Positions 6,393 through 61,065 of a stretch of 64,000 bases of DNA are shown here, piece after piece. The notes under the pieces were generated by a model that was not told the origin of the DNA, did not search any database, and worked only from the letters and a program-made list of their open reading frames with translations. The position numbers and the translations under genes are program-made. The stretch comes from Catellatospora vulcania (lineage in GTDB: Bacteria; Actinomycetota; Actinomycetes; Mycobacteriales; Micromonosporaceae). Every line of letters starts with the position of its first letter. Position 1 is the first letter of the stretch. The DNA is taken from positions 434,001-498,000 of the forward strand of contig NZ_WARX01000001.1 of NCBI RefSeq assembly GCF_009720385.1, written 5' to 3'.

Positions 6393-6455
6393 GATCGGCG
6401 TTTCCGGTCGGAAGACCGGGTCTGACCGCAGGCTCTGACCCGAAACAGCGATCTT
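6393..6455. repeat. AAACAGCGATC-family palindrome, copy 1
   Basis: Imperfect inverted repeat: GATCGGCGTTTCCGG on the left, CCCGAAACAGCGATC on the right, with the central GGGTCTGACCGC motif shared by the whole family. It lies 23 bp past the GNAT stop and 109 bp before the MFS start, so it may act as a terminator between two same-strand genes. It is the most diverged copy. Confidence 0.65.
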
Positions 6456-12478: not shown

Positions 12479-12543
12479 AAGATCGCTGTTTCGTGTCAGA
12501 ACCTCGGGTCAGACCCCAGGTTGTGACACGAAACAGCGATCTT
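12479..12543. repeat. AAACAGCGATC-family palindrome, copy 2
   Basis: Perfect 20-bp arms (12479-12498 and 12524-12543) with the family centre GGGTCAGACCCC. It lies 22 bp past rny and 44 bp before the convergent gluD stop, so it is probably a bidirectional terminator. Confidence 0.8.
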
Positions 12544-17790: not shown

Positions 17791-17871
17791 TGCGGGCGAA
17801 GATCGCTGTTTGCGGTCGAAACCTGCGGTCTGACCGCAGTTCTTGACCCGAAACGGCGATCTTCGCCCGCA
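17791..17871. repeat. AAACAGCGATC-family palindrome, copy 3
   Basis: 21-bp arms (17791-17811 and 17851-17871) with one G-U mismatch and the centre GGTCTGACCGC. It lies 140 bp past miaB. The 423 bp between miaB and the next gene also hold a 12-bp tandem repeat (GGTCTGCCGCGC, ~17766-17789), the B-family hairpin at 17894-17954 and the ebo operon promoter region; no further gene is seen. Confidence 0.8.
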
Positions 17872-18073: not shown

Positions 18074-19207
18074 ATGCGAACAGGTGTTTGGCTGGTCGGT
18101 GGGCGGGGGTCGGTCGCCGTCACCAGCATGGTCGGAGCCGTCGCGCTGCGCGCGGGGCTCGCCGAGCCCACCGGCTGCGTCACGGAACTGCCGCAACTGC
18201 GGCACCCCCAACTGCCCCAGCTCGCCGACCTGGTGTTCGGCGGGCACGACGTGATCGCCACCCCGATCCTCAAGAAGGCCGAGGCGCTCGCCGACGCGGG
18301 TGTGCTGCCCGGCCGCCTGGTCACGGCCCTGCAGCCGGAGCTCGCCGCGCTCGACGCCGAGGTGCGTCCCGCACCGCGCGGGGCGACCCAGGCCGAGACC
18401 GCGGCGCTGGTCGCCGCCGACATCGACGAGTTCCGCCGCCGCCACGAGCTGGGGCGGGTGGTGGTCGTCAACGTGTCGTCGACCGAGCCCGCCGCCGAGC
18501 CGCACGAGGCGCACGCAGCCCTCGACGTGCTGCGCGAGGCCTTGCGCGGGCCGGTGCCGGTGCTGCCGCCCAGCTCGCTGTACGCGTACGCGGCGTTCAC
18601 CGCCGGGTGCTCGTATGTCGACTTCACGCCTTCGACCGGGGCGCGGCTGCCGGCGCTGTCGCAGCTGGCGTACGAGCGCGGCGTGCCGTACGGCGGGCAC
18701 GACGGCAAGACGGGGGAGACCCTGGTCAAGTCGGTGCTCGCGCCCATGTTCGCGATGCGCGGCCTGGATGTGCGCAGCTGGTCCGGCGCGAACCTGCTCG
18801 GCGGCGGGGACGGGGCCAACCTGGCCCAGCCCGCGCCGAACGCGGCCAAGGCAGCCAGCAAGCAGCGGGTGCTCGCCGAGACGCTGGGCCACCAGCCGCA
18901 GGGCGACACCCGCATCGAGTACGTCGAGGACCTGGGCGAGTTCAAGACCGCCTGGGATCTGATCACGTTCCGCGGGTTCCTGGGCACCGCGATGCGGATG
19001 GAGTTCAGCTGGCACGGCTGCGACTCGGCGCTGGCCGCCCCGCTCGTGCTGGACCTGGTCCGGCTCACCGCCGCCGCGCACCGCGCCGGGCGTTGCGGAC
19101 CGCTGCCGGAGCTGGCGTTCTTCTTCAAGGACCCGCTCGGCGACGTCGAGCACGGGCTGTCCGCCCAGTTCGACGCCCTGGTCCGGATGGTCGAGGGCCT
19201 GGCGTGA
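18074..19207 (+). CDS. Inositol-3-phosphate synthase-family protein, first gene of ebo-type operon
   Basis: 377-aa homologue of myo-inositol-1-phosphate synthase, the NAD-dependent cyclase of glucose 6-phosphate. The N-terminal Rossmann loop reads GVWLVGGRGSVAVT. The catalytic-core signatures GGHDGKTGETLVKSVLAP, GANLLGGGDGANL, ASKQRVL and LAFFFKDPLG are all recognisable, so activity on a sugar phosphate is likely. ATG 18074 follows GGGAG by six bases. Its TGA stop overlaps an in-frame GTG of the next reading frame (GTGA). It stands where classical ebo clusters carry EboD, a dehydroquinate-synthase-like cyclase, suggesting that it supplies the cyclitol for the pathway. From memory Streptomyces coelicolor has the same set near SCO3238-SCO3243. 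Confidence 0.82.
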   Translation: MRTGVWLVGGRGSVAVTSMVGAVALRAGLAEPTGCVTELPQLRHPQLPQLADLVFGGHDVIATPILKKAEALADAGVLPGRLVTALQPELAALDAEVRPAPRGATQAETAALVAADIDEFRRRHELGRVVVVNVSSTEPAAEPHEAHAALDVLREALRGPVPVLPPSSLYAYAAFTAGCSYVDFTPSTGARLPALSQLAYERGVPYGGHDGKTGETLVKSVLAPMFAMRGLDVRSWSGANLLGGGDGANLAQPAPNAAKAASKQRVLAETLGHQPQGDTRIEYVEDLGEFKTAWDLITFRGFLGTAMRMEFSWHGCDSALAAPLVLDLVRLTAAAHRAGRCGPLPELAFFFKDPLGDVEHGLSAQFDALVRMVEGLA

Positions 19208-19309
19208 CCGCGCTGACCGAGGCGCAGCGCGCCGCGGCGCTGCCCGCCGCCCGCGCCCTGCGCGCCGCCCAGGGCCGGCGCATGACCGCTCGCCGCCCGC
19301 GAGAAGTGA

Positions 19310-19355
19310 ATCTTGTGCGGTTGAGGTCGTCAGAGCGACACGAACTGCACAAGAT
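19310..19355. repeat. ATCTTGTGC inverted repeat in the 5' region of eboC
   Basis: Arms ATCTTGTGCGGTT (19310-19322) and AACTGCACAAGAT (19343-19355), one G-U mismatch. They lie in the 257 bp between the inositol-phosphate-synthase stop and the ATG of the UbiA protein. That stretch is open in the UbiA frame from GTG 19204. Its first ~27 codons are uniformly G/C-ending, and the repeat itself breaks this bias, as expected for an inserted element. Confidence 0.65.
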
Positions 19356-19464
19356 CCATGGTCGGGGGGTGCCGGGCGGGCGCGGAGCGAGCGCCGAGGG
19401 AGCCGTCGCCGCGGCTCCGGCGCGCGGCTCGGGCAGCCGCTGGGCGGGCAGCCGCTGGGCGGGC

Positions 19465-20319
19465 ATGGTGCGCGACCTGGCTGAGCTGGTGCGGGCACCC
19501 GCGGCGCTGTCGGTGCCGGGGGACGTGATCGCCGGGGCGGCGGCCGCGGGAACGCTGAACCGGCGCACGCCGGGGCTGGCGGCGGCGTCGGTGTGCCTGT
19601 ACTGGGCGGGCATGGCCGCCAACGACTGGGCCGATCGGGACCTCGACGCGGTCGAGCGGCCGGAGCGGCCGATCCCCAGCGGACGGGTGTCGCCCCGGGC
19701 CGCGCTCGGCCTGGCCGCCGGGCTGACGGCTGCCGGGGTGGGCCTGGCCGCGTGGGCGGGCGGCCGCCGCGGGCTGGCCACCGCGGTGCCGCTGGCCGCC
19801 ACCGTGTGGGCGTATGACGTGAAGGCCAAGAACACCGCGGCGGGACCGGCCGTCATGGCCGCCTGCCGGGGGCTGGACGTGCTGCTCGGCGCGTCGACCG
19901 GGCGGGCCGCGAAGGCGCTGCCCGCGGCGCTGACGGTGGCCGCGCACACGTACACCGTCACCGCGCTGTCGCGGCGCGAGGTGTCCGGCACGGACGCGAG
20001 CCTGCCGGTGGCGACGCTGGCCGGGACGGTGGCCGTCGCCGCGACCGCGGCCGGGGCGAGCCGGCAGAAGGGCTGGCGGGCCGTGCTGCCCGTGGCGCTG
20101 GCCGGCTGGTATCTCACCCACTACGGCCGGGCGCAGGCGCGCGCGGCGGCCCAGCCGGACGCGGCCCGGGTCCGCGCCGCCGTCGGCTCGGGCATCACCG
20201 GCCTGCCCACGTTGCAGGGCACCCTGGCCGCCCGGACCGGGGCAGGTGTCACCGGGCTGGCGCTGGCCGCTCTCGCGCCGCTGGCCCGGCGCCTGGTCCG
20301 GAGGATCTCGGCCACATGA
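19465..20319 (+). CDS. eboC: UbiA-family prenyltransferase EboC-like (SCO3242 family)
   Basis: 284-aa integral membrane prenyltransferase with 7-9 hydrophobic segments. The first Asp-rich motif NDWADRDLD binds prenyl diphosphate through Mg2+, and RPIPSGRVS follows as in the UbiA family. The second motif is the EboC-type YDVKAKN. It presumably prenylates a small cyclic or sugar-derived acceptor at the membrane. ATG 19465 begins MVRDLAELVRAPAALSVPGD, the family start. The frame is open back to GTG 19204, which overlaps the previous stop, so an 87-residue longer form is possible; it would contain the inverted repeat and a duplicated GSRWA. Its stop overlaps the next ATG (ATGA). Confidence 0.8.
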   Translation: MVRDLAELVRAPAALSVPGDVIAGAAAAGTLNRRTPGLAAASVCLYWAGMAANDWADRDLDAVERPERPIPSGRVSPRAALGLAAGLTAAGVGLAAWAGGRRGLATAVPLAATVWAYDVKAKNTAAGPAVMAACRGLDVLLGASTGRAAKALPAALTVAAHTYTVTALSRREVSGTDASLPVATLAGTVAVAATAAGASRQKGWRAVLPVALAGWYLTHYGRAQARAAAQPDAARVRAAVGSGITGLPTLQGTLAARTGAGVTGLALAALAPLARRLVRRISAT

Positions 20320-21821
20320 ACCTGCGCTTCGGGTACGGCACCAACGGCTTCGCCAACCACCGCCTCGGCGACGCGCTGGCGGTGCTCGCCGACCTCGGCT
20401 ACGACGGCGTCGCGCTGACCCTCGACCACCACCACCTCGACCCGTACGCCCCCGGCCTGGCCCGCCGGGTCTCCGGCCTGGCCACCCGGCTGATGGAGCT
20501 GGGCCTGTCCGTGGTGATCGAGACGGGCGCGCGCTACCTGCTCGACCCGCGCCGCAAACACGCGCCGACGCTGCTGCACGACGAGCGTGAGGTGCGGCTG
20601 GACTTCCTGCTGCGCGCCGTGTCCATCGCGTCCGACCTGGGTGCGGAGGCGATGTCGTGCTGGTCGGGGGTGCGCCCGCCGTCGGTCGATCCGCAGCTGG
20701 CCTGGGACCGGCTGGTCGACGGCTGTGCGCGGCTCACCGAGGCGGCGTCCAAGGCCGCGGTGCCGGTCGGTTTCGAGCCGGAGCCGGGCATGTTCGTGCA
20801 GGACCTGGCGGGGTGGCGGACGCTGCACCGGGCGCTGGGCATGCCGCGCGCGTTCGGGCTGACCCTCGATCTCGGGCACTGCCGGTGCCTGGAGCCCGAG
20901 CCGGTCGCCGACTGCGTCGTGGCGGCCGCGCCGTGGCTGGTCAACGTGCAGATCGAGGACATGCGCCGGGGCGTGCACGAGCACCTGGAGTTCGGCGAGG
21001 GCGAGATCGAGTTCCCGCCGGTGCTGCGGGCGCTGGCCGACATCGGATACCGCGGCCTGGTCGGGGTGGAACTGCCCCGGCACTCGCACGCCGCCCCGGA
21101 CGTGGCAGGGCGCTCGCTGACGTTCCTGCGCGCCGCCGCCGGGCAGTCCGGTGGCGCGGCCGACCGTGCCCCCACGCTGGGGCAGCGTGCCCCGGGGCAG
21201 CGCCGCCCGGCCGGGGCGGTGCCCGCGCCGGAGGTGCTGCGGGCAGCCCTGGCCGCCGTGGACGACGGCGGCTGGCTGGACGAGGCGCTGCGCCGGGTGG
21301 CCGCCGACCCGTCCGTGATCAGCCGGCTGTTCCCGGCCGCGGCCCGCCGATGCGGACGGGGCGAGGTCCTGCCCGGCTGGACCGCCGACGAGGCAGCCCG
21401 CGCGGTGCTGCTGGCCACGCTGCCCGCCGAACGGGCGGTGGCGCAGGCCCGCGCGCTCTACCGGCACGGCGACGCCGCGGAGAAGCGGGCCGTGCTGCGC
21501 GCGCTGCCGCTGCTGCCGGTCGGCGCGAGCGCGGTCGAGCTGCTGCATGACGCGATCCGCACCAACGACACCCGGCTGGTCGCCGCGGCGCTGGGCCCGT
21601 ACGCGGCACATCTGGACGCCGCCGCCTGGCGCCAGGCCGTCGTCAAGTGCGTGTTCATGGGCATCGCGCTGACCTGCGTGGACGACCTGGACCACCGGGC
21701 CGACAGCGAACTCGCCGCGATGCTGGCCGGGGTCGCCGACGAGCGCCACGCCGCCGGGCGCGAGCTGCCCGCCGACGCCGCGGCGCTGCTGGCCCGGCTC
21801 AAAGCCGAGAAGGGGATCTGA
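20316..21821 (+). CDS. eboA: TIM-barrel sugar-phosphate isomerase-like / EboA fusion
   Basis: 501-aa two-domain protein. Residues 1-~275 are a xylose-isomerase-like TIM barrel (FGYGTNGFANHRLGDALAVL) with metal-ligand candidates in VGFEPEPGMFV, LTLDLGHC, EDMRRGVHEHLEFGEGEIEF and VGVELPRHSH. Residues ~305-500 are an EboA domain (RALPLLPVGASAVELLHDAIRTND, AVVKCVFMGIALTCVDDLDHRAD, ERHAAGRELPADAA), which is a stand-alone protein in cyanobacterial clusters. A Gly/Arg/Pro linker joins them. It overlaps eboC by ATGA and eboB by one base. The fusion suggests that EboA works directly with a sugar-isomerase step. Confidence 0.82.
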   Translation: MNLRFGYGTNGFANHRLGDALAVLADLGYDGVALTLDHHHLDPYAPGLARRVSGLATRLMELGLSVVIETGARYLLDPRRKHAPTLLHDEREVRLDFLLRAVSIASDLGAEAMSCWSGVRPPSVDPQLAWDRLVDGCARLTEAASKAAVPVGFEPEPGMFVQDLAGWRTLHRALGMPRAFGLTLDLGHCRCLEPEPVADCVVAAAPWLVNVQIEDMRRGVHEHLEFGEGEIEFPPVLRALADIGYRGLVGVELPRHSHAAPDVAGRSLTFLRAAAGQSGGAADRAPTLGQRAPGQRRPAGAVPAPEVLRAALAAVDDGGWLDEALRRVAADPSVISRLFPAAARRCGRGEVLPGWTADEAARAVLLATLPAERAVAQARALYRHGDAAEKRAVLRALPLLPVGASAVELLHDAIRTNDTRLVAAALGPYAAHLDAAAWRQAVVKCVFMGIALTCVDDLDHRADSELAAMLAGVADERHAAGRELPADAAALLARLKAEKGI

Positions 21822-22669
21822 TGCGCATCTTCGACCCGCACGTGCACATGACCTCACGCACCACCGACGACTACGAGGCGATGGCCGCCGCCGGGGTGCG
21901 TGCCGTGGTGGAGCCCGCGTTCTGGCTGGGCCAGCCGCGTACCAGCCCGGGTTCCTTCGCCGACTACTTCGACGCGCTGATCGGCTGGGAGCCGTTCCGG
22001 GCCGGGCAGTTCGGCATCCGGCACTTCGCCACGATCGCGCTGAACCCGAAGGAGGCCAACGACCCGCGCTGCCGCGAGGTGCTCGAACTGGTCCCGCGCT
22101 ACCTGGACAAGGACGCAGTGGTCGCGGTCGGGGAGATCGGGTACGACTCGATGACGCCGCAGGAGGACCACGCGTTCGCGGTACAGCTGGGGCTGGCGGT
22201 GGAGTTCGATCTGCCGGCGCTGGTGCACACGCCGCACCGGGACAAGGTACGCGGCACGCAGCGCAGCCTGGACGTGGTCAAGGAGTCCGGCATAGACCCG
22301 GCCCGGGTGGTCATCGACCATCTCAACGAGGTGACCGTCGAGCTGGTCCGCGACAGCGGGTGCTGGCTGGGCTTCTCGATCTATCCGGACACCAAGATGT
22401 CGCCGCCGCGCATGGTGGAGCTGCTGCGCCGCCACGGCACCGAGCGCATGCTGGTCAACTCGGCGGCCGACTGGGGCCGCTCCGACCCGCTGCTCACCCG
22501 GCGCACCGGCGAGGCGATGCTCGCGGCCGGGTTCAGCGACGACGACGTGGACCGGGTGCTGTGGCGCAACCCGGTCGAGTTCTACGGCCAGTCCGGGCGG
22601 CTCGACCTGTCCGACGCGGACGCGCCCGCCGACTTCGCCGGGAACTCGATCAAGCGGGGTGGCGCCTGA
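21821..22669 (+). CDS. eboB: TatD-family metal-dependent hydrolase EboB-like
   Basis: 282-aa amidohydrolase-fold protein. The N-terminal metal motif is FDPHVHMTSRT (HxH). Later come GEIGYDSMTPQEDHAF (Glu ligand), LVHTPHRDK, VIDHLNEVT and VNSAADWGRSDPL (Asp ligand), the order seen in TatD-related hydrolases of ebo clusters. It probably hydrolyses a phosphoester or amide intermediate of the pathway. ATG 21821 overlaps the eboA stop by one base (TGATG), as does its own stop with eboE, giving tight translational coupling. Confidence 0.85.
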   Translation: MRIFDPHVHMTSRTTDDYEAMAAAGVRAVVEPAFWLGQPRTSPGSFADYFDALIGWEPFRAGQFGIRHFATIALNPKEANDPRCREVLELVPRYLDKDAVVAVGEIGYDSMTPQEDHAFAVQLGLAVEFDLPALVHTPHRDKVRGTQRSLDVVKESGIDPARVVIDHLNEVTVELVRDSGCWLGFSIYPDTKMSPPRMVELLRRHGTERMLVNSAADWGRSDPLLTRRTGEAMLAAGFSDDDVDRVLWRNPVEFYGQSGRLDLSDADAPADFAGNSIKRGGA

Positions 22670-23886
22670 TGCGGCTGTTCCATCCCGACGGGCAGACCGT
22701 GCACCTGAGCTACTGCACCAACGTGCACCCGGCCGAGGACCTCGACGGCATCGTGGCGCAGCTCGACACGTACGGCACCGCGATCCGCCGGGAACTGGAC
22801 GCGGATGTGCTGGGGCTGGGCCTGTGGCTGGCCGCGCCCGCGGCGTCCGCGCTGGCCGCCGAGCCGCACCTGCGCCGCACGCTGCGGCGGGAGCTGGACT
22901 CGCGCGGGCTGGAGGTGGTCACCCTCAACGGGTTCCCGTACCAGTCGTTCCAGGCCGAGGTCGTCAAGCACGCGGTGTACCACCCGGACTGGACCACCCC
23001 GGAGCGGCTGCGCTACACCCTGGACCTGGCCGTGGTGCTGGCCGACCTGCTGCCCGACGACGCGGTGCGCGGCTCCATCTCGACGCTGCCGCTGGCCTGG
23101 CGCGAACCCTGGGACACCGAGCGCGCCGGCACGGCCGGGCGGGTGCTGGACGAGCTGGCCGACGGCCTGGCCGCCATCGCCGGGCGCACCGGCCGCACCG
23201 TGCAGGTCGGCTTCGAACCCGAGCCCGGCTGCGTGGTGGAGACCACCGAGCAGGCCGCCCGGCTGTGGGCCGGCATGGACGGCGACTGGCTCGGCGTATG
23301 CCTCGACCTCGCGCACCTGGCCTGCGCGTGGGAGGAGCCCGCCGAGGCGCTGTCCCGGCTCGCGCGGGCCGGGCTGCCGGTGATGAAGGTGCAGGTGTCC
23401 GCCGCGCTGACCGCCGACGACCCGGTCGCGGCCCAGGCCGTGCTGCGCGGCTACGACGAGCCGCGTTTCCTGCACCAGACCCGGGGCTCGCGCGGCGAGG
23501 CCGCCGACGACCTCGGCGAAGCCCTGGACCGGCTGCTGCCGCGCCCGCGCCGCACCCCGCAGCCGTGGCGGGTGCACTACCACGTGCCGCTGCACGCCGA
23601 ACCGGCCGCGCCGCTCGGCAGCACCCTGCCCGAGCTGCGGGTCGCGCTCAAGGAGCTGTTCGGCGGGCCGACCGCGGGCTGCGACCACGTGGACGTGGAG
23701 ACGTACACCTGGAACGTGCTGCCCCCGGCACAGCGGCCGGTCACCCCCGCGCAGCTGGCCGCGGGGATCGCGGCGGAGCTGGCGTTCGCCCGCGACGAGC
23801 TGATCGCGCTCGGGCTGACCCCGGGCGGCCCGACCGCGCCGCTGGAGATGATGGAACTGCAGGAGGTCCGCCCGTGGACACCGTGA
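22669..23886 (+). CDS. eboE: Metabolite traffic protein EboE
   Basis: 405-aa xylose-isomerase-like TIM-barrel protein of the EboE family. Diagnostic segments are LSYCTNVHPAEDLDGIVAQL at the N-terminus, TLNGFPYQSFQAEVVK, VGFEPEPGCVVETTEQ, CLDLAHLACAWEEP and a C-terminal WRVHYHVPLH with DVETYTWNVLP. Metal-binding residues of the isomerase fold appear conserved (E of FEPEPG, D/H of LDLAH). In Nostoc punctiforme the ebo cluster is needed to move scytonemin precursors to the periplasm; the enzymatic role of EboE is unknown. Starts with TGATG; the next gene begins 13 nt before its stop. Confidence 0.87.
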   Translation: MRLFHPDGQTVHLSYCTNVHPAEDLDGIVAQLDTYGTAIRRELDADVLGLGLWLAAPAASALAAEPHLRRTLRRELDSRGLEVVTLNGFPYQSFQAEVVKHAVYHPDWTTPERLRYTLDLAVVLADLLPDDAVRGSISTLPLAWREPWDTERAGTAGRVLDELADGLAAIAGRTGRTVQVGFEPEPGCVVETTEQAARLWAGMDGDWLGVCLDLAHLACAWEEPAEALSRLARAGLPVMKVQVSAALTADDPVAAQAVLRGYDEPRFLHQTRGSRGEAADDLGEALDRLLPRPRRTPQPWRVHYHVPLHAEPAAPLGSTLPELRVALKELFGGPTAGCDHVDVETYTWNVLPPAQRPVTPAQLAAGIAAELAFARDELIALGLTPGGPTAPLEMMELQEVRPWTP

Positions 23887-25274
23887 CCCCGCTGGTCGTG
23901 CTCGACGTCGTCGGGCTGACCTCCCGCCTGCTGGAGCACATGCCCCGGCTGCGGGCGCTCGCCGACACCGGCTTCGCCGCCCCGCTCGGCACCGTGCTGC
24001 CCGCGGTCACCTGCTCGGCGCAGTCGACCCTGCTCACCGGCGTCATGCCGGCCCAGCACGGCATCGTCGGCAACGGCTGGTACTTCCGCGACCTCGGCGA
24101 GGTGCTGCTGTGGCGGCAGCACCACGCGCTGGTCGGCGGCGAGAAGGTCTGGCAGGCGGCGCGCAAGGCCCGCCCCGGCTACACGGTGGCCAACGTCTGC
24201 TGGTGGTACGCCATGGGCGCCGACGTCGACTGGACCGTCACGCCGCGGCCCGTGTACCGGGCGGACGGGCGCAAGGAGCCCGACTGCTACACCGACCCGC
24301 CGCAGCTGCACGACGCGCTCACCGCCGAGCTGGGCACGTTCCCGCTGTTCCAGTTCTGGGGGCCGGGGGCCGGCATCGCCTCGACCCGCTGGATCGCCGC
24401 CGCGGCCCGGCACATCATGGCCGCCCACTCACCCGACCTGACCCTGGTCTACCTGCCGCACCTCGACTACGACCTGCAGCGCTTCGGCCCGTACGGTCCC
24501 GAGGCCGCCGCGGCCGCGCGCGAACTCGACGAGGTGCTCGGTCCGCTGCTCGACGCCGCGCAAGCACGCGGGGCGACCGTGGTGGCGCTGTCGGAGTACG
24601 GCATCACGCCGGTGCGCCGGCCCGTGGACATCAACCGGGCGCTGCGGGCCGAGGGCCTGCTGCGCGTGCACACCCAGGCCGGCATGGAATACCTCGATCC
24701 GTGGACCTCGCGGGCCTTCGCCGTCGCCGACCACCAGGTCGCGCACGTCTACGTGGCCGATCCCGCCGACCGGGCCGTGGCCGCCAAGATCTGCGCGAAC
24801 CTCCCAGGCGTGGCCCAGGTGCTCGACGAGGCGGGCAAGGCCGCCTACGGCCTCGACCACCCCCGCTCCGGCGAGCTGGTCCTGGTCGCCGAACCGGACG
24901 CCTGGTTCACCTACTACTACTGGCTCGACGACACCAAGGCCCCTGACTTCGCCCGCCTAGTCGAGATCCACCGCAAGCCCGGCTACGACCCCGCCGAGCT
25001 GTTCTTCGACCCGGCCGCCCCCGCCGCCGCCAAACGCCGCGCCGCCACCGCCCTGCTCCGCAAGAAGGCGGGCATGCGCTACCTGATGAACGTCGTCGGC
25101 CTCGACGCGGGCGCCCGAGCCGTCCGCGGCTCCCACGGCCGCCTGCCCACCGACGCCGCCGACGGCCCCCTACTCATCTGCTCCGACCCGTCCCAGCAGC
25201 GTGACGCCTTCGCCGCCACCGACGTGAAACCCCTCCTCCTCCGCCTCGCCGGCCTCACCCCACCCACCTCCTAA
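23874..25274 (+). CDS. Alkaline-phosphatase-superfamily nucleotide pyrophosphatase/phosphodiesterase, EboF-like
   Basis: 466-aa metallophosphoesterase of the type I phosphodiesterase/nucleotide pyrophosphatase family. The start LVVLDVVGLT gives the first metal Asp, and TVLPAVTCSAQSTLLTG carries the Thr nucleophile. LVYLPHLDYDLQRFGP supplies further Asp/His ligands, VVALSEYGITPV the Glu/Tyr variant of the SDHG loop, and FAVADHQVAHVYV the last ligands. GTG 23874 has AGGAGG seven bases upstream, inside eboE. It closes the six-gene operon and probably removes a phosphate or nucleotide group late in the pathway. No signal peptide is visible. A palindrome-rich region follows. Confidence 0.83.
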   Translation: MDTVTPLVVLDVVGLTSRLLEHMPRLRALADTGFAAPLGTVLPAVTCSAQSTLLTGVMPAQHGIVGNGWYFRDLGEVLLWRQHHALVGGEKVWQAARKARPGYTVANVCWWYAMGADVDWTVTPRPVYRADGRKEPDCYTDPPQLHDALTAELGTFPLFQFWGPGAGIASTRWIAAAARHIMAAHSPDLTLVYLPHLDYDLQRFGPYGPEAAAAARELDEVLGPLLDAAQARGATVVALSEYGITPVRRPVDINRALRAEGLLRVHTQAGMEYLDPWTSRAFAVADHQVAHVYVADPADRAVAAKICANLPGVAQVLDEAGKAAYGLDHPRSGELVLVAEPDAWFTYYYWLDDTKAPDFARLVEIHRKPGYDPAELFFDPAAPAAAKRRAATALLRKKAGMRYLMNVVGLDAGARAVRGSHGRLPTDAADGPLLICSDPSQQRDAFAATDVKPLLLRLAGLTPPTS

Positions 25275-25298
25275 CCCCACGCCGCCGTCCCACCCGTG

Positions 25299-25363
25299 CC
25301 GCAACTCTTGAAGAGTCGCGGCTACGGGGTGGCCGTGAAGCCGCGACTCTTTAAGAGTTGCGG
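25299..25363. terminator. CCGCAACTCTT inverted repeat after the ebo operon
   Basis: 24-bp arms (25299-25322 and 25340-25363) with one mismatch. Each arm is itself nearly palindromic (AACTCTTGAAGAGTCG). It lies 25 bp past the EboF-like stop and is likely the operon terminator. A single-arm version lies at 30611-30633. Confidence 0.75.
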
Positions 25364-25385
25364 CAGGTGGGGGCGGGGTGAGAAC

Positions 25386-32298: not shown

Positions 32299-33735
32299 TT
32301 GCCTACTTTCCCCGACATCCTGGTGGCCGAAGAGACCACCGGTGACCTTGAACTCTCGGAGCGGCATTCGCTGCGCCGGGTGGCCGGGCTCTCCACCGAG
32401 CTCGCCGACGTCACCGAGGTCGAATACCGGCAGCTGCGGCTGGAACGGGTGGTGCTGGTGGGCGTCTGGACCTCCGGCACCGTCGTGGATGCGGAGAACT
32501 CCCTCGCGGAGCTCGCCGCACTCGCGGAGACCGCCGGCTCGCAGGTGCTCGAAGGCCTGATCCAGCGGCGCAGCCAGCCTGACGCCGCGACATTCATCGG
32601 CCGCGGCAAGGTGGACGAGCTCAAGGCGGCGGTGGAGTCGACCGGCGCGGACACCGTGATCTGCGACGGCGAGCTGTCCCCGAGCCAGCTGCGCAACCTG
32701 GAGCAGAAGATCAAGGTCAAGGTGGTCGACCGGACCGCGCTGATCTTGGACATCTTCGCCCAGCACGCCAAGAGCAAGGAGGGCAAGGCCCAGGTCGAGC
32801 TGGCGCAGCTGCAGTACCTGGTGCCGCGCCTGCGAGGCTGGGGCGAGGCCCTGTCGCGGCAGACCGGTGGTTCCGGTCGCGGCGGCGGCGCCGGTGGCGG
32901 CGTGGGTCTGCGTGGTCCCGGTGAGACGAAGCTGGAGACCGACCGCAGGCGTATCCGCACCCGGATCGCCAAGCTCAAGCGGGAGATCACCGCGATGAGC
33001 GTCATCCGCGACACCAAGCGGGCGGGTCGCCTGCGCAACACGGTGCCGTCGGTGGCCATCGCCGGGTACACCAACGCGGGCAAGTCCAGCCTGCTCAACC
33101 GGCTCACCGGAGCCGGGGTGCTGGTCGAGGACGCGCTGTTCGCGACCCTGGACACGGCGACCCGCCGCACCGAGGCGCGCGACGGCCGGGTGTACACCCT
33201 GTCGGACACGGTCGGTTTCGTGCGGCACCTGCCGCACCAGCTGGTCGAGGCGTTCCGCTCCACGCTGGAGGAGGTCGGCTACGCCGATCTGGTGGTGCAC
33301 GTGGTCGACGGGGCTCACCCGGACCCCGAGGAGCAGGTGCGGGCGGTGCGCGAGGTGCTGGCCGAGGTCGGCGCGGACCGGCTGCCCGAGCTGCTGGTGG
33401 TCAACAAGGCCGACGCCGCCCCGCAGGAGACGCTGCTGCGGCTCAAGCGGGAGTGGCCCGACGCGGTGTTCGTGTCGGCCCGGTCCGGGCAGGGCATCGA
33501 GGAGTTGCGCGACATCATCGAGTCGCGGCTGCCGGTGCCGGCGGTGGAGATCGTCGCCTGCGTCCCGTACGAACGGGGCGATCTGGTGGCGAAGGTCCAC
33601 CGCAGGGGTGAGGTGCTGGCGTCGGGACACACCGCCGCCGGAACCCAGCTCCGGGCCCGGGTGGATCGGGAGCTGGCCGCTGAGCTGGGCGTTTACTCAA
33701 TTACTGATAGTGACTGGGTTACCGACGCATCGTGA
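32299..33735 (+). CDS. hflX: Ribosome-associated GTPase HflX
   Basis: 478-aa GTPase that splits stalled or heat-damaged ribosomes. The N-terminal HflX domain includes AATFIGRGKVDEL and ICDGELSPSQLRNLE. A Gly-rich linker follows (SGRGGGAGGGVGLRGPGETKLE), then the G domain: G1 GYTNAGKSSL, G2 LFATLDTATR, G3 DTVGFVRHLP, G4 NKAD, G5 SARSG. The best start is TTG 32299, five bases after GAAGGAG; it gives the family length, while the upstream GTG 32236 lacks such a site. It is adjacent to dapF/miaA in many actinobacteria, here with malic enzyme between. Confidence 0.93.
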   Translation: MPTFPDILVAEETTGDLELSERHSLRRVAGLSTELADVTEVEYRQLRLERVVLVGVWTSGTVVDAENSLAELAALAETAGSQVLEGLIQRRSQPDAATFIGRGKVDELKAAVESTGADTVICDGELSPSQLRNLEQKIKVKVVDRTALILDIFAQHAKSKEGKAQVELAQLQYLVPRLRGWGEALSRQTGGSGRGGGAGGGVGLRGPGETKLETDRRRIRTRIAKLKREITAMSVIRDTKRAGRLRNTVPSVAIAGYTNAGKSSLLNRLTGAGVLVEDALFATLDTATRRTEARDGRVYTLSDTVGFVRHLPHQLVEAFRSTLEEVGYADLVVHVVDGAHPDPEEQVRAVREVLAEVGADRLPELLVVNKADAAPQETLLRLKREWPDAVFVSARSGQGIEELRDIIESRLPVPAVEIVACVPYERGDLVAKVHRRGEVLASGHTAAGTQLRARVDRELAAELGVYSITDSDWVTDAS

Positions 33736-43395: not shown

Positions 43396-43464
43396 TCATG
43401 ATCGCTGTTTCGTGACAGAAAGTGGGGTCGGACCTCAGATCATGACCTGAAACAGCGATCATGA
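43396..43464. repeat. AAACAGCGATC-family palindrome, copy 4
   Basis: Perfect 16-bp arms TCATGATCGCTGTTTC (43396-43411) with 43449-43464 and centre GGGTCGGACCTC. It lies 62 bp after the EamA gene, with the B-family hairpin 35 bp further on. Confidence 0.78.
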
Positions 43465-60963: not shown

Positions 60964-60975
60964 CGCTCCCCGGCA

Positions 60976-61038
60976 AGATCGCTGTTTCGGGTCGAATCCT
61001 GTGGTCAGACCTCACTTTCCGACCTGAAACAGCGATCT
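60976..61038. repeat. AAACAGCGATC-family palindrome, copy 5
   Basis: 19-bp arms AGATCGCTGTTTCGGGTCG (60976-60994) with 61020-61038, one G-U mismatch, and centre GGTCAGACCTC. It starts 12 bp after the HhH-GPD stop, and the B-family hairpin follows at 61066. Confidence 0.78.
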
Positions 61039-61065
61039 CCGCCCCGCGCCGCCACCGCAACCGTT

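Follow-up and report, generated by a model that had tools for sequence, protein, structure and literature searches.

We describe an ebo operon of the actinobacterium Catellatospora vulcania (RefSeq assembly GCF_009720385.1) that is led by INO1, a diverged paralogue of inositol-3-phosphate synthase, in the place of the cyclase EboD. The operon lies at positions 18074-25274 of the window, i.e., the whole 64,000-nucleotide stretch that was analyzed (contig NZ_WARX01000001.1, positions 434,001 to 498,000 of the forward strand). In the sampled genomes, the substitution of INO1 for EboD is a clean, lineage-wide displacement. Judging from sequence comparisons, we consider it somewhat probable that both types of ebo operon make a prenylated cyclitol lipid, starting here from glucose 6-phosphate.

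All six reading frames in the window are open, run in one direction (plus strand) and match the families that the original prediction had named from the letters alone. INO1 (18074-19207; PF07994, 169 bits, and PF01658, 105 bits) is followed by an EboC-like UbiA prenyltransferase of the SCO3242 family (19201-20319; NF045897, 387 bits, cut-off 260), a xylose-isomerase-like TIM barrel (PF01261) fused to an EboA domain (20316-21821; NF035938, 149.5 bits, cut-off 50), the TatD-like metal hydrolase EboB (21821-22669; best profile match AF_1765, 3guw), the TIM barrel EboE (22669-23886; NF035939, 413 bits, cut-off 250), and an EboF-like phosphodiesterase/phosphatase of the NPP superfamily (23883-25274; PF01663, 227 bits). 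EboB and EboF are homologous between INO1-type and EboD-type operons, and one tree joins both; tblastn with window and Azospirillum queries found 40-60% identity for EboB and 48-59% for EboF in those of the 80 loci of other phyla that have these genes within the stretch.

The central claim of the original prediction, INO1 in EboD's place, proved to be general and exclusive in the sampled genomes. Among the 394 genomes of the class sample, EboE exceeded its cut-off in 90 (95 places), and an ebo-type INO1, defined by at least 45% identity (a threshold chosen after the list was seen), was found in 85. Both genes occur in 84 genomes, i.e., in 84 of the 90 with EboE, EboE alone in 6, INO1 alone in 1 and neither in 303, a split that rejects chance co-occurrence (Fisher p about 2e-77, relatedness ignored). 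If the identity threshold is dropped and all INO1 matches up to E 1e-20 are counted, 89 genomes have INO1, and EboE accompanies it in 85. INO1 lies 1.5-4.6 kb from EboE at 83 of the 95 places. The remaining 12 include three with INO1 on another contig, close to a contig end, three second or split copies (in genomes G128, G659 and G549), five in genomes without any INO1 match at E 1e-20, and one (G419) with the order C-A-B-E-F and no INO1.

EboD did not exceed the NF004852 cut-off in any of the 79 searched genomes (of 84) with INO1 and EboE, namely the genome of the window and 78 further ones; it should be noted that NF004852 as an EboD marker rests on two scored EboDs, one from G381, an EboD-type genome of the same phylum (564 bits), and one from an Azospirillum plasmid (571 bits). 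We also considered a hidden EboD in the genome of the window and rejected it, as the matches of dehydroquinate (DHQ)-synthase type are AroB (contig C9), an AroB-like gene (C19) and a glycerol-1-phosphate-dehydrogenase-like gene (C3:673672-673908). The C19 gene scores 269 bits against TIGR01357 and 133 against NF004852, compared to 571 for the Azospirillum plasmid EboD, and was rejected as EboD; the C3 gene is below the PF01761 cut-off and scores 196 bits against NF002022 (cut-off 413) on a partial frame.

For the other phyla, named genomes were scanned with the EboE profile, and the best 80 of at least 581 confirmed relatives were used, none of them actinobacterial by title; these loci were chosen by likeness to EboD-type EboE and provide no frequency estimate. 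EboD is within the stretch at 77 of the 80 loci, neither cyclase at three (L073, L091, L116), and INO1 at none of the 80. The window's phylum and plasmids contributed 108 loci; INO1 was found at 86 of them, EboD at one and neither at 21, of which 17 show EboE without other ebo genes in the stretch. The extra TIM barrel follows the same division: it is present in 83 of 87 INO1-type operons and, at E 1e-5, in none of the 84 loci of the EboD set.

Several loci deserve separate mention. Two operons of family f4, L041 and L212, probably from Streptomyces, have the order C-A-B-E-F without INO1, and both genomes hold a second, INO1-bearing operon; in L041, a CrtI/CrtO-like FAD oxidoreductase occupies INO1's place, and a gene of the inositol-monophosphatase/HisN family is located farther upstream. 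In L221, L237, L245, L246 and L258, EboE without other ebo genes adjoins genes of a ribose-type ATP-binding cassette (ABC) transporter, with a Gfo/Idh/MocA gene and a TIM barrel also near the EboE of L258. Two Streptomyces plasmids (L058 and L060) have neighbourhoods that are alike by annotation, one with a complete INO1-type operon, the other with a lone eboE beside polyketide genes.

In a tree of EboB and EboF from 51 loci, the 23 INO1-side loci, including L041 and L230 without a local INO1, are on one side of a single branch (support 100/100). As the INO1-side loci form one group, one switch suffices; the tree is unrooted and fits either direction. The occurrence of EboD in nearly all sampled loci of other phyla suggests that the EboD version is the older one. 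In a tree of 101 INO1 rows, 93 form one ebo-type set (support 96/88), separate from mycothiol INO1, the solved INO1 7nwr and five other INO1s of the same phylum, although very long branches (mycothiol INO1 and Archaeoglobus fulgidus) make deeper placements unsafe. Neither of the two findings that would have spoken against the original prediction, a genome without a housekeeping synthase or an EboD elsewhere in it, was obtained. The window INO1 scores 33.9 bits against the mycothiol INO1 equivalog TIGR03450 (cut-off 638), and a mycothiol INO1 is present on contig C3 (650 bits); therefore, we rejected the window INO1 as the housekeeping enzyme.

The residues N255, K274, K278, K306 and K367 (A. 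fulgidus numbering), which we take to be catalytic and for which mutant chains appear among the structure matches, are each kept in 92 of the 93 ebo-type rows. One row departs at K306 and one at K367, and N255, K274 and K278 each have one gapped row. Conservation at these five positions, together with the best solved relative of the window INO1 being a true INO1, that of A. fulgidus (1u1i), speaks against the alternative that the enzyme makes something other than inositol phosphate, from another substrate or with another ring size, and that EboC uses this compound as its acceptor. We consider this alternative unlikely. Its support comes from position 259, near the active site, which is Gly in all 92 readable ebo-type rows, where A. 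fulgidus has Asp and the five other INO1s have Asn, and from a distant match (5.6e-13) of INO1 to the five-membered-cyclitol-phosphate synthase 6k96.

The genes adjoining the operon bear on the product as well. Flanking genes came from a simple GC-based caller that mis-merged some open reading frames, and the neighbour counts rest on tblastn places. A polyprenyl-diphosphate synthase adjoins 20 of the 87 INO1-type operons on the same strand, after EboF in 17 (16 of family f1 and one of f93) and before INO1 in three (f8); no such synthase turned up with this query among the 84 EboD-set loci. These 20 operons thus combine genes for the two halves that we predict for the product, which strengthens the case for a prenylated cyclitol.

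We propose the following pathway, whose reactions and product are predictions from homology and gene content. A diverged inositol-3-phosphate synthase would have taken over from EboD, probably in a single event, and an additional TIM-barrel protein would have come with it. INO1 would cyclise glucose 6-phosphate to inositol phosphate, and the TIM barrel, whose profile is nearest to sugar epimerases, with IolE and IolI farther off, may alter the ring by isomerisation, epimerisation or dehydration. The membrane UbiA enzyme EboC would join a prenyl chain to the phosphorylated polyol; its nearest solved relative by profile is digeranylgeranylglyceryl-phosphate (DGGGP) synthase, followed by chlorophyll synthase, 4-hydroxybenzoate octaprenyltransferase and decaprenyl-phosphate phosphoribosyltransferase, and the motifs NDxxDxxxD and YDxxxK are present in an EboC alignment of 12 sequences. 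EboF, nearest by profile to nucleotide pyrophosphatase/phosphodiesterases and phosphonoacetate hydrolase, would remove the phosphate, and EboB and EboE would trim or rearrange the molecule. INO1 retains the phosphate of its substrate, unlike DHQ-synthase-type cyclases, and this would give EboF a substrate; yet EboF is also found in EboD-type operons. The product would be a membrane prenyl-cyclitol lipid that serves extracellular metabolite traffic or oxidation, a role proposed by analogy with the supposed scytonemin role of the EboD version.

A number of observations, in addition to the 6k96 match, weigh against this interpretation. To our knowledge, no product has been established for any ebo operon. 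The extra TIM barrel is missing from four INO1-type operons (L201, L203, L216, L220), INO1 is not local in five INO1-side operons (L033, L041, L212, L230, L317), and L310, L311 and L318 have an ebo-type INO1 without EboE alongside. An adjoining same-strand prenyl-diphosphate synthase is lacking in 67 of the 87 INO1-type operons, 16 of the 20 adjoining synthases come from one family, and the window copy has no prenyl-diphosphate synthase, scored sugar-module gene (see below) or ScyE gene beside it. Finally, in the accessible part of PMC9235831, Bacteroidota EboC homologues farnesylate quinolines in vitro, with 14 acceptors, all aromatic.

The last point leads to another possibility, in which EboC prenylates an aromatic acceptor, the TIM barrels having first dehydrated the cyclase product to an aromatic ring, and the outcome is a prenylated phenol or quinol. 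DGGGP synthase acts on a polyol phosphate lipid and chlorophyll synthase on chlorophyllide, and these two are the closest solved relatives of EboC, the 4-hydroxybenzoate transferase being a weaker match. This makes an aromatic acceptor doubtful in our view, even though the EboC homologues accept 8-hydroxyquinoline-2-carboxylate (PMC9235831, in part), the matches of the operon TIM barrel are sugar epimerases and, at lower strength, IolE and IolI, and a TIM barrel that neighbours the operon in some loci has a weak IolE match (48 bits of 290).

At least one gene of a putative sugar module is in the stretch of 52 of the 87 INO1-type operons. The scored genes encode levoglucosan-dehydrogenase-like Gfo/Idh/MocA proteins (GFO), TIM barrels (TIMx and TIMy), ThuA, 3-keto-disaccharide hydrolase (3KDH), the binding protein of a ribose-type ABC importer (SBP) and GSDH-type dehydrogenases (GSDH), the identities being those of named representatives. 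We weighed a third explanation, that INO1 serves sugar or inositol metabolism and accompanies ebo only because both are parts of a broader keto-sugar module, with an ABC importer, a Gfo/Idh/MocA dehydrogenase, TIM barrels, ThuA and a 3-keto-disaccharide hydrolase. The 52 operons are consistent with it, as are L310 and L318, where INO1 is within such a module without EboE. Conversely, INO1 also leads the other 35 INO1-type operons, including the window copy, which have none of the scored genes, and EboD-type operons flanked by ThuA or GSDH carry no INO1. We regard this explanation as very unlikely.

GSDH was found in the stretch of 21 of 55 loci, compared to 0.94 expected from 536 genes genome-wide in 80 genomes; the expectation rests on a hand-entered table of the 55 loci, and related species are not independent, so that the excess is overstated. 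In the EboD set of 84 loci, GSDH is present in four and ThuA in five, and three EboD-type Flavobacteria (L102, L109, L131) have a ThuA-GSDH pair by ebo. A gene of the ScyD/ScyE family (NF033206, 243-290 bits, cut-off 80) is directly upstream of INO1 in L055, L208 and L225, and, by annotation and tblastn, upstream of INO1 in L064 as well; in G651, ScyE ends at 32587 and INO1 begins at 33048 of one contig. Such an arrangement is a minority one: the family exceeded its cut-off in 37 of 80 genomes searched, and among the matches listed, the ones by the operon are confined to G651 and to G599, from which L208 comes. The ScyE-family gene of the genome of the window (330 bits; C12:234734-235774) is distant from both of its ebo operons. 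By eye, the N-termini of ScyE and GSDH resemble export signals, and both presumably fold as beta-propellers. The recurrent prenyl-diphosphate synthase and secreted-type oxidoreductase neighbours of the ebo operon are new here. A broader idea, which we regard as speculative and improbable as a whole, is that across phyla the ebo product is a prenylated cyclitol or derived polyphenol, which would serve secreted beta-propeller oxidoreductases as a redox or carrier lipid in the membrane (the partners being ScyD/ScyE in cyanobacteria and a subset of actinobacteria, and GSDH-type dehydrogenases in actinobacteria and certain Flavobacteria), with two unrelated cyclases, EboD and INO1, starting two chemical versions.

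The architecture of the window copy differs in part from that of its relatives. The predicted stop/start overlaps are borne out by the junction letters, i.e., GTGA for INO1/EboC, ATGA for EboC/TIM-EboA, TGATG for both EboA/EboB and EboB/EboE, and GTGA for EboE/EboF, with one uncertainty. The family match of EboC begins at residue 92 of a 372-aa frame, so that the conserved part runs from about 19474, some 270 bp past the INO1 stop, with an open frame ahead of it; the actual start of EboC may therefore lie clear of INO1. The open stretch from INO1 to conserved EboC (19208-19470) is outside the family profile match, and a long gap, about 420 bp, is also present in L252. The window EboC scores 146 bits against the EboC equivalog NF035940, below the cut-off of 250. 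The predicted TIM barrel-EboA fusion is real in the window and is a minority form elsewhere: both parts are in one open frame in 14 of the 85 loci where they were located and separate in 71. The usual operon thus has seven genes, in the order INO1-C-(TIM)A-B-E-F. Just past the operon, at 25289-25373, there is an inverted repeat with 35-nt arms.

The window copy is located between miaB and a cellulase gene, a DUF349 gene and miaA, and miaB also adjoins the ebo operon in four loci of the same genus. A location inside a biosynthetic gene cluster was rejected, as the scanned neighbours encode RNase Y, an amino-acid-type ABC importer, MiaB, the cellulase, the DUF349 protein and MiaA. The same genome has a second complete INO1-type operon (contig C16, L035, 4639-12548), with proteins 55-82% identical to those of the window copy and, immediately behind EboF, a polyprenyl-diphosphate synthase. 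In the tree of INO1, the window copy and the C16 copy are placed with different relatives. All 11 genus genomes of the family sample, this one included, have two or more EboE places above the cut-off, the second place of G867 being a partial match. Among named records, those of Streptomyces and Nonomuraea hold the closest ebo relatives. The window also contains a dispersed palindromic element around AAGATCGC..TTT (6439-6455, 12479-12543, 17799-17863, 43398-43462 and 60975-61039), with 9 pattern matches compared to 0.41 expected, 8 of which form four inverted pairs.

The ebo operon occurs in many phyla, and published work connects it with the export of scytonemin precursors and with the repelling of nematodes. 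Displacement of EboD by INO1, an enzyme of known chemistry, is an independent sign that the pathway begins with a polyhydroxylated six-membered ring. The INO1-type operon also moves the product question into genetically tractable Streptomyces, where labelled glucose or inositol could serve as a tracer. The adjoining prenyl-diphosphate synthases hint at the remaining half of the product, and a clue to its use may come from the secreted-type oxidoreductases that recur nearby.

A search that covered subscription journals poorly found no paper describing the exchange of EboD for INO1, and the word "inositol" is absent from the accessible parts of PMC5133447, PMC6282210 and PMC9235831. The accessible text of PMC5133447 proposes an isoprenoid-cyclitol product for ebo and mentions actinobacterial TIM-EboA hybrids as data not shown. 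According to PMC6282210 and PMC12188702, ScyE acts outside the cytoplasmic membrane in cyanobacteria, and its substrate is taken to be brought to that site by ebo. Of the Streptomyces set SCO3238-SCO3243, mentioned in the original prediction, SCO3242 and SCO3243 were recovered through an NCBIfam name and the available part of PMC3610822, where they are a "putative transferase" and a "myo-inositol phosphate synthase" counted with the CDA antibiotic cluster; SCO3238-SCO3241 were not confirmed. Streptomyces coelicolor SCO3242 is the namesake of the window prenyltransferase family, and this naming means that NCBI curators already knew the SCO3242-family prenyltransferase.

Among known systems, A. 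fulgidus INO1 (1u1i) has the catalytic residues of the window INO1 in common, and we know of no link between it and a prenyltransferase. The mycothiol-type inositol-3-phosphate synthase (TIGR03450) belongs to the same superfamily, with its true member elsewhere in the genome. Another pairing of a sugar-phosphate cyclase with a UbiA enzyme differs in having a DHQ-synthase-like cyclase and a different UbiA family. Two further counterparts are the eustigmatophyte and bacterial ebo operons (PMC5133447) and, linked to scytonemin, the ebo cluster of Nostoc punctiforme (PMC6282210), which share with the window operon an EboA domain, EboB, an EboC-like UbiA enzyme, EboE and EboF within one operon. In contrast to them, the window operon has no EboD, begins with INO1, includes an extra TIM barrel and has an EboC from a separate NCBIfam family. 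ScyD/ScyE stands beside ebo in the scytonemin cluster, and, whereas the window copy is without it, the INO1-type operons of L055, L208, L225, L064 and G651 have it.

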